From Chloroflexota bacterium (GTDB taxonomy: Bacteria; Chloroflexota; Anaerolineae; J036; Brachytrichaceae), in NCBI GenBank assembly GCA_023382055.1, contig JAMCQN010000030.1, forward strand, positions 1 to 64,000: 64,000 bases of DNA. The letters run 5' to 3'. The translations under genes were made by a program, and so were the position numbers. Below, piece after piece: positions 12,619 through 53,709 of the stretch. The notes beneath the pieces are model-generated. The model searched no databases and was not told the DNA's origin. It worked only from the letters and a program-made list of their open reading frames with translations. Positions within the stretch are counted from its first letter, which is position 1; every line of letters begins with the position of its first letter.

Positions 12619-13466
12619 TCATCGCCGAGAACGGCAACCGGCCTGGATGACCTGTGCGCCATCGTGTCCGCTCAGCGCCGCTCGGGCAGGAACTACATGA
12701 TGATGGAAACCGCCGTGTATACGCGCCAGTTCCTGTATGCCAGGGCGCTGCGCGACCACGGCGAACTGGGCCGCATCCAGTTTCTGCGCGGCGCGCACTA
12801 CCAGGATATGGAACGCTGGCCTACTGGGTGGGTCTGCCGCCCATGTGGTACGCTACGCACGCCATCAGCCCGCTGCTTGCGATTGCTGATGCACAGGCTG
12901 CGCAGGCGCATTGTTTTGGCTCCGGCGTGATGCGCCCGGAGTTACGGGAGCAGTACGGCAATCCGTGGCCGGTCGAAACCGCGATCTACCAGTTGGATCG
13001 GCCAAGCCTGTCGGCCGAGGTCACCCGCACGCTGTTCCATTGCGCGCGGCCCTATATGGAAAGTTTCACCGTTTATGGCGAGAATGGATGTTACAAGTGG
13101 CAGATGGAAGACGCGCCGCCGATGCTGTTCCGCGCCAGCCAGGTTGTGCCGAACGAAGTGAGAACCGTGACAGCTAGCCAGCCCGCGGCGCCGGATCGCG
13201 CCGACCTGCTGCCGCAGGAGATCGCCCGGTATACGCAACGCTTTGTCTACGACGACGCGAATCGCCATTTGTCATTTGAGCAGGGCGGGGGCCATCATGG
13301 TTCGCATCCTCATTTGGCGCATGAATTCGTCAGCAGCATCGTCGAGCGGCGTGAGCCGTGGATCAATGCCGCCAGAGCCGCCAGTTGGACCGCGGCGGGA
13401 ATCTGCGCGCATCTGTCCGCCCTGCAGAACGGAGTGGAAGTAACCATTCCGAGTTTTATGGACTAA
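12619..13466 (+). pseudogene. Gfo/Idh/MocA-family oxidoreductase pseudogene: lacks the NAD-binding N-terminus and carries a -1 frameshift near 12820-12822
   Basis: Frame 1 reads ..LDDLCAIVSAQRRSGRNYMMMETAVYTRQFLYARALRDHGELGRIQFLRGAHYQDMERWP; homology continues in frame 3 as YWVGLPPMWYATHAISPLLAIA...; no GxGxxG dinucleotide-binding region is present. Confidence 0.8.
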
Positions 13467-13470
13467 TATA

Positions 13471-13503
13471 AGAAGTCTGACTTCTCGCAGAAGTCAGACT
13501 TCT
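13471..13503. repeat. 33-nt palindromic element, copy 1 (perfect 15-bp stem, CGC loop)
   Basis: AGAAGTCTGACTTCT-CGC-AGAAGTCAGACTTCT. Confidence 0.95.
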
Positions 13504-13958
13504 CAGCGCCCATCGGAATAGGTTCTTGCCGTCATCTTCGGGCTGGAGCGGCCAGGTAATCCCGCCAGTTGTTCGTACAGTTTTGTGTCACTGGCATAAC
13601 CCAGGTTGATCTGCTGTACGGTTCCTTTCGCGTCCAGAACCACAGTGGATGGCACGGTCAGGATGCCGAGGTGGGCGACCAGCTCCAGGTGATCCAGCGC
13701 CGACACGGATGTCACCGTGACTTGCTCGCGCAGTTTGGCCTTCAGGCGCGCCAGCGCCGGCTCCTGCAGCGTATGGCAGTCCCGGCAATGCGGGGCAGAA
13801 AATGCAACGACGGCGGGTATGCCGGGCGGCGCCAGCTTGCTCAAGGGCGCTTCGTTGCGTAGCTGGTTCAATTTACGCGACTTCCACCAGCGGACAACGC
13901 TCCATATGGCTGCCGCCGCAAACGCAAGCGACAACAGGATCAGTAGGCGTTCGATCAT
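13503..13958 (-). CDS. Membrane-anchored thioredoxin-like protein
   Basis: N-terminal TM; PAVVAFSAPHCRDCHTLQEPAL with CxxC; LGILTVPSTVVLDAKG. Confidence 0.85.
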   Translation of the reverse strand: MIERLLILLSLAFAAAAIWSVVRWWKSRKLNQLRNEAPLSKLAPPGIPAVVAFSAPHCRDCHTLQEPALARLKAKLREQVTVTSVSALDHLELVAHLGILTVPSTVVLDAKGTVQQINLGYASDTKLYEQLAGLPGRSSPKMTARTYSDGR

Positions 13959-20530: not shown

Positions 20531-20552
20531 TCGACCGCTGACCGGATGAATC

Positions 20553-20584
20553 AAAAAACGCCATCGATGCCGATGGCGTTTTTT
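20553..20584. terminator. Bidirectional rho-independent terminator
   Basis: AAAAAACGCCATCG-ATGC-CGATGGCGTTTTTT, perfect 14-bp arms between convergent genes. Confidence 0.95.
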
Positions 20585-20592
20585 GTCGCCGG

Positions 20593-28179: not shown

Positions 28180-28212
28180 GGATGTCTGGATTCGCGCCGA
28201 AGCCGGACATCG
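28180..28212. repeat. 33-nt palindromic element, copy 4 (diverged)
   Basis: GGATGTCTGGATTCG-CGC-CGAAGCCGGACATCG; compensated changes relative to the other copies; between convergent genes. Confidence 0.75.
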
Positions 28213-38754: not shown

Positions 38755-38963
38755 ATTCTTTTTCTCCTTAATCAACCTCTGCGTTTGTCATCTAAACTGC
38801 AGATTGCGAAGCGGTTGTAAATTTGCCTCACAACAGGTGCGCAGTCCATCAAAACGCATGTGAATTTACGTAGCTGTTAAGCCGGGCGTGATTTTACCAC
38901 ATTGCGCTCCTCTCCGTGTAACCGAGCGCCTTCGGCAGCAATTCTAAATATGGCTGAGGGATG

Positions 38964-38986
38964 GCCTGTGGTTTGAAACCACAGGC
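38964..38986. repeat. Perfect hairpin, 11-bp arms
   Basis: GCCTGTGGTTT-G-AAACCACAGGC. Confidence 0.85.
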
Positions 38987-38997
38987 TGGCAAAAGCG

Positions 38998-39045
38998 AAC
39001 CGGCCAAGGCGTGTTAACCGCGCGGCCAACCGGCCTTGGCCGGTT
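38998..39045. repeat. Inverted repeat, perfect 13-bp arms
   Basis: AACCGGCCAAGGC ... GCCTTGGCCGGTT with 22-nt spacer. Confidence 0.85.
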
Positions 39046-39087
39046 TCGTCTGTGTCAAGCGCCGGATTCATCCGGTGGGGGTGATGT

Positions 39088-39120
39088 ATCCTTGTGAAGG
39101 CTCGCAGCCTTCGCAAGGAT
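39088..39120. repeat. 33-nt palindromic element, copy 5 (same 15-CGC-15 architecture, different arm sequence)
   Basis: ATCCTTGTGAAGGCT-CGC-AGCCTTCGCAAGGAT (one G.T wobble). Confidence 0.75.
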
Positions 39121-39197
39121 GAATGTTTCATCCGGTGGCGTCGGCTGGTGTGGTTGATAACAGAAAATGCCCCCTGTTAATGCGGGATAATAGCGGT

Positions 39198-39230
39198 GGA
39201 TGTCTGACTTCTCCGAGAAGCCAGACATCT
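39198..39230. repeat. 33-nt palindromic element, copy 3
   Basis: GGATGTCTGACTTCT-CCG-AGAAGCCAGACATCT. Confidence 0.9.
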
Positions 39231-39290
39231 ACAGGTTGTGTTGGTGGTGTGTGAAGGTGTTTGTTTTCAGTTTCGTGCATAAGGAAAGAT

Positions 39291-52483: not shown

Positions 52484-52516
52484 ATATATCTGACTTCTCG
52501 CAGAAGTCAGACATAT
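52484..52516. repeat. 33-nt palindromic element, copy 2
   Basis: ATATATCTGACTTCT-CGC-AGAAGTCAGACATAT (one mismatch), between convergent genes. Confidence 0.93.
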
Positions 52517-52536
52517 GGGTTCCTATCGGGCAGGAA

Positions 52537-53709
52537 CTAAGGCAACGTTGTGCCTGCAGTCGTGATCGTCGATGTATTGCTGATCGGTGCGCTGTCCGGG
52601 TTTGCCCGCGTCTCAACGGCCGCGTTTGGCGCCGTGGAGAAAAACGAGTCTCGCAGTTCGGCGATCTTGGCGCGTATCGGCACCTGCACCCACTGCGGCG
52701 GGTCGGTCATGGTGGATGCAAATTCAGAATAAGTCTGGTCCAGCACTGCCACCCTGATATGGTCGCGATCGACCTTCTGTGCCAGTGCAGCCAGTTGCTG
52801 CATCTGATCCAGCGTGAGGTCGGTTTTCACAGACTGGTTCAATTTCTCGATCAACTGCGGGGCGCTGGCGAGTAAAGACAGGAATACCTTTGGATCGGAT
52901 ACCTTGTCTTTGACCGCCAGCAGCACAAGTTGCTGATCGCGGGCGCGGTCAAAGTCGCCGTTGACAAGGCTGTGGCGGGTGCGAGCAAATTTCAACGCCG
53001 TGGCGCCGTCCATGTTGTGAATCCCCTTGGTGATACTGAAAACTTCGGTCCCGTAGTCGCTGGTTGGGTATTCCGGATCGTAGATATCCAGCGGGACATC
53101 GACCGTAACGCCGCCGATCTGGTCGACAAAGTCCTCGAATGCAGAGAAGTTGACCCGCACGTAAAAGTTGATGGGTATCCCCAGGAGCTGCTCGACGGTT
53201 TTGCGCGCCAGTTCCGACCCGCCGCCGGGATAGTTATAAGCGTCCCCGAGGAAATTAGCCGTGTTGATGCGCCCGTTGTCGTATCCCGGAATCGGCACCC
53301 ACAGGTCGCGCGGAACCGACAGAATGCCTGCCTGCAACGTGACCGGGTCAAGAGTGAGGATGATCATGGTGTCGGTGCGGCCCGGGTCTTTCTCGCCGAT
53401 GCGTTGGTCAATTCCAGTCACCAGCACATTCACGCGCTCTTTGCCGTTCCATGGGCGCGGCAACCGGATTGCCGGTGTCTGTGTAACGACGACAGGTGTT
53501 CCTGCGGCATTGACGGGGTCCGGCGTAGTGTAATAGTCGATATTGACTTGCACTGTGGAACCGTAGTTGCACAACCAGTTCGCAGCCAGCTCCCCGCCGG
53601 CGCAGAAGTTATAGGCAGCCCGATTCACCAGGACACTCGCCGCGATGCCGATTATCAGCAACAGAGCGAACGCCCAGAATAGTCTCCTTCTAAGCCATGT
53701 TGCAATCAC
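52537..53709 (-). CDS. LytR-CpsA-Psr (LCP) family protein
   Basis: VNVLVTGIDQRIGEKDPGRTDTMIILTLDPVTLQAGILSVPRDLWVPIPGY, HNMDGATALKFARTRHSLVNGDFDRARDQQLVLLA. Confidence 0.96.
   Translation of the reverse strand: MIATWLRRRLFWAFALLLIIGIAASVLVNRAAYNFCAGGELAANWLCNYGSTVQVNIDYYTTPDPVNAAGTPVVVTQTPAIRLPRPWNGKERVNVLVTGIDQRIGEKDPGRTDTMIILTLDPVTLQAGILSVPRDLWVPIPGYDNGRINTANFLGDAYNYPGGGSELARKTVEQLLGIPINFYVRVNFSAFEDFVDQIGGVTVDVPLDIYDPEYPTSDYGTEVFSITKGIHNMDGATALKFARTRHSLVNGDFDRARDQQLVLLAVKDKVSDPKVFLSLLASAPQLIEKLNQSVKTDLTLDQMQQLAALAQKVDRDHIRVAVLDQTYSEFASTMTDPPQWVQVPIRAKIAELRDSFFSTAPNAAVETRANPDSAPISNTSTITTAGTTLP

Follow-up and report, generated by a model that had tools for sequence, protein, structure and literature searches.

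RAYT-linked 33-nt hairpins as probable REP-like mobile repeats in a Chloroflexota genus

REPtrons, the systems that combine REP or REPIN repeats with a RAYT (REP-associated tyrosine transposase), are described as having high-copy, mostly intergenic palindromes near the 3' ends of genes and an own RAYT for each repeat family (PMC3733652, PMC6006769, and PMC8266576, in the sections considered here, to which all our statements on these papers refer). Published REPs have this placement, donate stop codons to neighboring genes, and include in-frame copies (PMC3733652), and a REPIN consists of two REPs in inverted orientation (PMC3733652, PMC6006769, PMC8266576). In the REP hairpins examined to date, a GTAG-type guide adjoins a short or bulged stem. 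The closest described case is that of TnpA-REP subclass 2.4 (Bertels group 4), which has in-gene REPs and double-foot REPs with GT[AG]G ... C[TC]AC feet; according to the authors, loss of the central part between two inverted REPs could give rise to a double-foot hairpin (PMC6006769). For subclass 2.1, the same sections state that no REP had been found (PMC6006769). The phylum Chloroflexota itself is represented by the GTAG-23 REPs of Thermomicrobium roseum, REP-type palindromes inserted within small palindromes (PMC3733652). Finally, TIRYT genes are RAYT-like and have flanking inverted repeats without GTAG, some of which are self-complementary and repeated in the genome; these TIRs often share GGGGWSAS, and their description there contains no fixed 15-3-15 plan (PMC3733652).

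The hairpins analyzed here resemble REPtron repeats in copy number, placement, stop-codon donation, in-frame copies, and, for hairpins of this plan in general, association with RAYTs, and their two inverted, near-palindromic arms may correspond to the REP pair of a REPIN; unlike REPtron repeats, they have a fixed size of 33 nt, made up of two 15-nt modules 3 nt apart, and lack the GTAG/GTGG guide. The feet of double-foot REPs are absent from them as well, and they differ from GTAG-23 REPs in being dispersed and without GTAG. We consider it likely that they are small, non-autonomous mobile repeats of the REP/REPIN kind that are linked to RAYTs and belong to at least five co-resident families.

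The starting point was the window, a stretch of 64,000 nucleotides (positions 1 to 64,000 of contig JAMCQN010000030.1) from a member of the Brachytrichaceae. The initial annotation had reported a perfect hairpin at 13471, three related 33-nt elements, and a fifth that kept the 15-CGC-15 design with other arms, all of them intergenic. We recovered all five elements (Table 1), re-derived the first as perfect, and found each between genes in our own gene calls, which were made with a simple coding-potential gene finder. The fifth is not of the same sequence family and is a member of a separate one with the same architecture (family 4). A 31-nt consensus searched with up to three mismatches matched the window four times, compared with no match in 100 dinucleotide shuffles. 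Three of the five hairpins (13471, 28180, and 52484) are in convergent gaps, and the first fills the 36-nt gap between the gene ends at 13466 (+) and 13503 (-). The other four stems are imperfect: the copy at 28180 has an unpaired outer position and an internal mismatch/wobble, that at 39088 one G.U pair (fold, -23.6 kcal/mol), that at 39198 one A.C and one G.U, and that at 52484 a single A.C mismatch. Another convergent gap of the window holds an ordinary intrinsic terminator, AAAAAACGCCATCG...CGATGGCGTTTTTT (20552-20585), and the host thus also uses U-tract terminators.

Table 1. Hairpins and remnants of a longer element in the window
Feature	Position	Strand	Details
Family 1 hairpin	13471..13503	.	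Perfect 15-CGC-15; RNA fold -22.0 kcal/mol
Decayed arm CAGCGCCCATCGGAATAGGTTCTT of longer element	13504..13527	.	Arm score 24 vs null 99th percentile 15
Diverged family 1 hairpin	28180..28212	.	Between convergent gene ends 28174 (+) / 28219 (-)
Family 4 hairpin ATCCTTGTGAAGGCT-CGC-AGCCTTCGCAAGGAT	39088..39120	.	15-3-15; relatives at loci L030 and L097
Family 1 hairpin, loop CCG	39198..39230	.	Divergent gap 38776-39290, together with the family 4 hairpin
Family 1 hairpin	52484..52516	.	Between convergent gene ends 52468 (+) / 52537 (-)
Likely decayed arm GGGTTCCTATCGGGCAGGAACTAA of longer element	52517..52540	.	Arm score 18 vs null 99th percentile 15

The annotation had proposed to look for further copies in the whole genome and in relatives, and further copies were found in both, in the host beyond chance. 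The host genome (G000; 3.88 Mb in 207 contigs, 82.7% complete) contains 34 exact copies of the family 1 core, TCTGACTTCT-NNN-AGAAGTCAGA; with up to three mismatches, TCTGACTTCTCGCAGAAGTCAGA matched 51 times in the forward and 60 times in the reverse direction, and the same sequence written backwards did not match. With 62 copies as input, a covariance model gave at least 148 strand hits at a minimum of about 75 places in this genome (150 candidates scored); the diverged copy at 28180 in the window is not among its hits. Exact cores occur in all five genomes of the genus, that is, in the host and four sister species (G001 to G004), and in none of the 55 other sampled relatives from outside it. 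The covariance model found about 44 copies in G002, 38 in G003, 13 in G004, and 4 in G001, and borderline hits only in other genera of the family. Family 1 is thus a high-copy, short, mainly intergenic palindrome, by which REPs and REPtrons are recognized. When genome contigs were scanned for the core, matches came from the four sister species and from one cyanobacterial contig, a Chamaesiphon MAG. This sole match outside the genus (L060:1902-1924) lies within a longer palindrome and has different flanks; that genome has one weak RAYT relative, which no hairpin adjoins, and we rejected the match as a family member. It is probably due to chance. The small dispersed repeats of cyanobacteria, which Elhai et al. 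reportedly presented in 2008 as very small mobile intergenic repeats, resemble the hairpins in just these properties, a likeness by description alone.

Placement was biased as well. The 79 host places, which include a few family 5 hairpins admitted by a loose pattern, comprise 28 convergent, 36 tandem, and 7 divergent gaps, 6 positions inside genes, and 2 contig edges; 71 of the 77 classifiable places are therefore between genes, and convergent gaps and the 3' ends of genes are favored. For comparison, convergent gaps account for 973 and divergent gaps for 2,423 of the 6,923 intergenic bases in the window. Where tandem gaps leave at least 60 free bases (26 gaps), 20 copies are closer to the upstream stop, with medians of 23 nt and 106 nt for the two distances. 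The neighbor's stop codon is supplied by 21 of 136 copies. Several copies are in frame within genes (e.g., the one in L096 that encodes EKSDFLEKSDF), which is possible because 33 nt equals 11 codons.

The annotation had also held that differences between the arms are mostly compensated. Within the window this was generous, whereas genome-wide it is correct: double changes occur in 11 of 17 pairs, and pair 6/32 is UA in 44 copies, AU in 13, and GC in 4, and is broken in none. Across 61 distinct copies, 91.7% of the pair cells are standard, compared with 84.9% after shuffling and 29-43% with the partner slid; the figures on core conservation are biased, since the copies were fetched by their core, and the outer pairs are free of this bias. 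In G000, G002, and G004, pairing is lost abruptly beyond 15 bp, falling from 0.81-0.88 at the fifth outer pair to about 0.3. In G003 it continues past 15 bp, with 0.84, 0.80, 0.72, and 0.60 at the next four positions. At G003 loci L151-L170 and L035-L058, stems are up to about 16 pairs longer with perfect, locus-specific complementarity, which might result from template-switch correction of imperfect palindromes; several left flanks in this genome carry an extra GATG 11-13 nt upstream. Covariation, together with compensated changes at two orthologous sites, supports the suggested selection on the fold. We infer that such selection acts in the host, and a palindrome-correcting mutation process could contribute to the compensated changes.

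Orthologous sites in the sister species point to mobility. Using the genes beside ten host copies (in one concatenated query), we retrieved orthologs from all four sister species; a second ortholog set came from G004 only. At the three convergent window sites, the hairpin is absent from every sister ortholog found, mostly with a convergent gene close by: the orthologous gap is without it in G001, G002, and G003 for the 28180 site, and in G001, G002, and G004 for the 52484 site. Agreement among several sister species favors gain in the host lineage at these window sites. Among 18 family 1 sites with a G004 ortholog, compared by eye on the printed sequences, 11 have no hairpin there, 4 a homologous one (L003, L076, L084, and L094), and 3 an unrelated one (L013, L024, and L103), with gain and loss indistinguishable at sites covered by G004 only. 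Since copies are absent from most orthologous sites in the sister species, family 1 moves. The G004 stems at L003 (CCAGTCTGACTTCC-GCGC-GGAAGTCAGACTGG) and L084 (GATGCCTGACTTC-GGACA-GAGGTCAGGCATC) each differ from the host in two pairs, with compensation on both sides, and pairing is weaker in the G004 hairpins at L076 and L094.

The genus carries at least five hairpin families on one plan, in which 15-nt arms enclose a 3-nt loop. Scanning stretches of the host genome de novo yielded family 2 (AGACTCCCGGAATCT), family 3 (AAACCTCACAGGTCT), and family 4 (ATCCTTGCGAAGGCT), to which the window hairpin at 39088 belongs; family 5 (ACACCTCCGAGTTCT) has the same plan. The host contains 41 copies of family 3; G004 has 11, which show a compensated base change, and a few more occur in other genera. 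Two tandem arrays of family 3, each of four copies, were observed in G000: one on contig C29 (L316:2124-2603, about 149-nt spacing), beside a RAYT gene of this genome, and one on contig C102 (L319:1634-2011, about 115-nt spacing). The arms themselves follow a common formula. In 25 arm sequences, taken from the host families and from RAYT-linked hairpins, a 7-1-7 near-palindrome has a mean of 5.52 matches out of 7, compared with 1.86 in shuffled arms (maximum 2.76 in 20,000 trials), a very large effect whose significance is overstated because the list was assembled from hairpins already noticed and includes near-variants. The center of symmetry is exactly mid-arm (0.79, compared with at most 0.30 elsewhere); 23 of the 25 arms start with A, and they end in CT (21) or TT (4). 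The arms from G007 (3/7) and G005 (2/7) do not fit the 7-1-7 rule.

A search for a RAYT gene had also been proposed, and it was successful: the host has one on contig C194 that is bordered on either side by family 5 hairpins, of which one has a 20-nt spacer. This was the only host RAYT detected with PF01797 alone; a RAYT profile added a second on C29 and fragments in sister species. Searching 14 genomes with PF01797 revealed additional RAYTs that have their own hairpins, and 47 of 89 genomes matched the RAYT profile at E <=0.01, some through weak Y1 relatives. At 31 RAYT loci, we looked within 250 nt for hairpins whose loop is exactly 3 and whose arms reach 14 or more. Such hairpins are present at 20 loci, on both sides at 10, and at 11 none was found; a control of 265,760 nt from relatives contained 14, from which about 2 of 31 would be expected, bearing in mind that the loci are not fully independent, as some share a genus and seven of the proteins had been used to construct the profile. 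The RAYT-linked hairpins differ in sequence from genome to genome, and in-frame hairpins also occur inside RAYT genes. Families 2, 3, and 5 adjoin RAYT genes or fragments in this genus. In G002, a family 1 copy directly follows another gene's stop codon and is separated by about 11 nt from the C-terminal fragment of a RAYT, which has the hairpin on one side only; given about 44 copies in 4.5 Mb, we estimate the chance of a family 1 copy falling within 50 nt of a RAYT at about 0.001. The search yielded no intact RAYT with family 1 at its flanks, and no RAYT at all for family 4. We infer that RAYTs mobilize the hairpins, and the fragment in G002 may be what is left of the cognate RAYT of family 1.

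Judged by their sequences, the encoded proteins are TnpA-REP/RAYT, which are HuH tyrosine nucleases with a single domain. They match NF047646 (REP_Tyr_transpos) at E 8e-21 and 4e-22, with bit scores of 74.4 and 78.6, just under the curated cut-off of 80; the only PDB match is 4er8, TnpA-REP (E 5e-11); and N-H-x-H and Y-x-H-x-N-P, i.e., the HuH and Y---NP motifs that characterize TnpA-REP, are invariant. Their motif set, NH[YF]H, FQ/FE, and YIHxNP, looks more like that of subclass 2.1, and the in-gene repeats point to subclass 2.4. Where E. coli TnpA-REP has Trp94 in the guide region, these proteins align a Phe, and GTAG/GTGG was found beside the hairpins in 3 of 158 flanks only. Taken together, the lack of GTAG/GTGG and the Phe in place of Trp indicate a variant of the RAYT/REP system rather than a canonical GTAG-REP.

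Could the mobile unit be larger than 33 nt? In G002, family 1 is nested in a palindrome of about 76 nt that is bounded by TA (TA-AGARCCTATCCC ... GGGATAGGCTCT-TA) and present in about 15 near-intact copies; the 33-mer might then be merely the center of a MITE of a TA-targeting transposon. Two window copies are followed by remnants of the arm of this element (Table 1), the evidence at 52517 being weaker than that at 13504, and at L077 the comparison of the host with G004 resembles a clean insertion of the entire element. However, no trace of it is seen at many host copies and at nearly all G003 copies, a TA duplication and terminal inverted repeats bound the 33-mer only where it is nested in the longer element, and pairing in the host stops at 15 bp. 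The element would also leave the other 15-3-15 families and the RAYT linkage unexplained, and REPs nested in longer palindromes are already known (PMC3733652). We regard it as quite improbable that the longer element is the mobile unit. It (TAAGARCCTATCCC...GGGATAGGCTCTTA), or a remnant of it, was seen, for example, at L040, L046, L051, and L149 in G002 and at L022 and L077 in the host.

The placement at gene ends makes it natural to think of bidirectional transcription terminators or stabilizers of mRNA 3' ends, similar to one another through gene conversion or recruitment. Such a role fits the crowding of copies at stop codons and in convergent gaps, the compensated stem changes at two retained sites, and L076 and L094, where sister species show canonical-looking terminator hairpins instead. 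It does not fit the sequence next to the stems, which have on average 2.0 T in the 8 nt on their 3' side, compared with 1.6 expected, and five or more T in 3 of 132 cases; nor does it fit the mostly empty sites in sister species, the in-frame copies in genes, including RAYT genes, or L014, where a U-tract hairpin comes after the repeat, and the RAYT linkage remains unexplained. Terminators as the primary identity are thus unlikely to us, and a secondary 3'-end role is possible. The strong dyad symmetry of the 25 arm sequences could also be that of double operator sites, with each arm a 7-1-7 dyad bound by a dimeric DNA-binding or nucleoid protein. But the families are unrelated in sequence while their architecture and RAYT linkage are constant, copies sit at gene 3' ends and not at promoters, and solitary arms were not seen in the stretches examined (20 were listed, which are left arms of AAG-type hairpins and a counting artefact); this makes operators very improbable. 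As for the suggestion that the family is REP-like or small-RNA-like, the former is borne out by copy number, placement, covariation, lineage-specific sites, and the RAYT genes or remnants that hairpins of this plan flank in the host, its sister species, and other genera of the class. Small-RNA genes, to which a stable and covarying hairpin might belong, are scarcely credible: the window has no Rfam match at the gathering threshold, no sequence is conserved outside the 33 nt, the two strands are equivalent, and copies are packed tightly against stop codons.

Each 33-nt unit consists of two 15-nt near-palindromic modules, inverted and 3 nt apart; a single arm may act as a REP, and the hairpin would then be REPIN-like. 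If the hairpins are mobile REP/REPIN-kind repeats, a family-specific RAYT would recognize the folded hairpin on single-stranded DNA, cut it, and rejoin it, and copies would in this way reach new sites. They would survive mainly at the 3' ends of genes, being harmless there or serving as transcript-end hairpins, and some would persist in frame inside a few genes. A narrower proposal, to which we give somewhat less than an even chance, is that these RAYTs form a guide-less branch, in which enzymes with Phe in place of Trp recognize a structural 33-nt double palindrome (15-3-15, 7-1-7, A...[CT]T), with several independent hairpin populations in a genome; within this branch, the sequence would diverge freely as enzyme and repeat coevolve, the architecture would stay fixed, and in-frame copies would be possible.

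We found no earlier description of a guide-less, 33-nt, RAYT-linked plan in the open-license literature, and one may exist elsewhere; in particular, the 15-3-15 hairpins may overlap with the "double palindromic TIRs" of TIRYT genes, from which description alone sets them apart. If the proposal is true, guide-less double palindromes of fixed size would be a natural experiment on the substrate choice of domesticated transposases, RAYT-linked repeats would be documented widely in a phylum that has received little study, and each genus would offer an enzyme/substrate pair ready for testing. Dispersed hairpins of another size were also observed: G007, from another genus, has at least three copies of a 53-nt hairpin, CGCGAAACACACTATTCTCTCCCC...GGGGAGAGAATAGTGTGTTTCGCG, at L174:1413-1465, L174:18446-18498, and L266:2975-3027.
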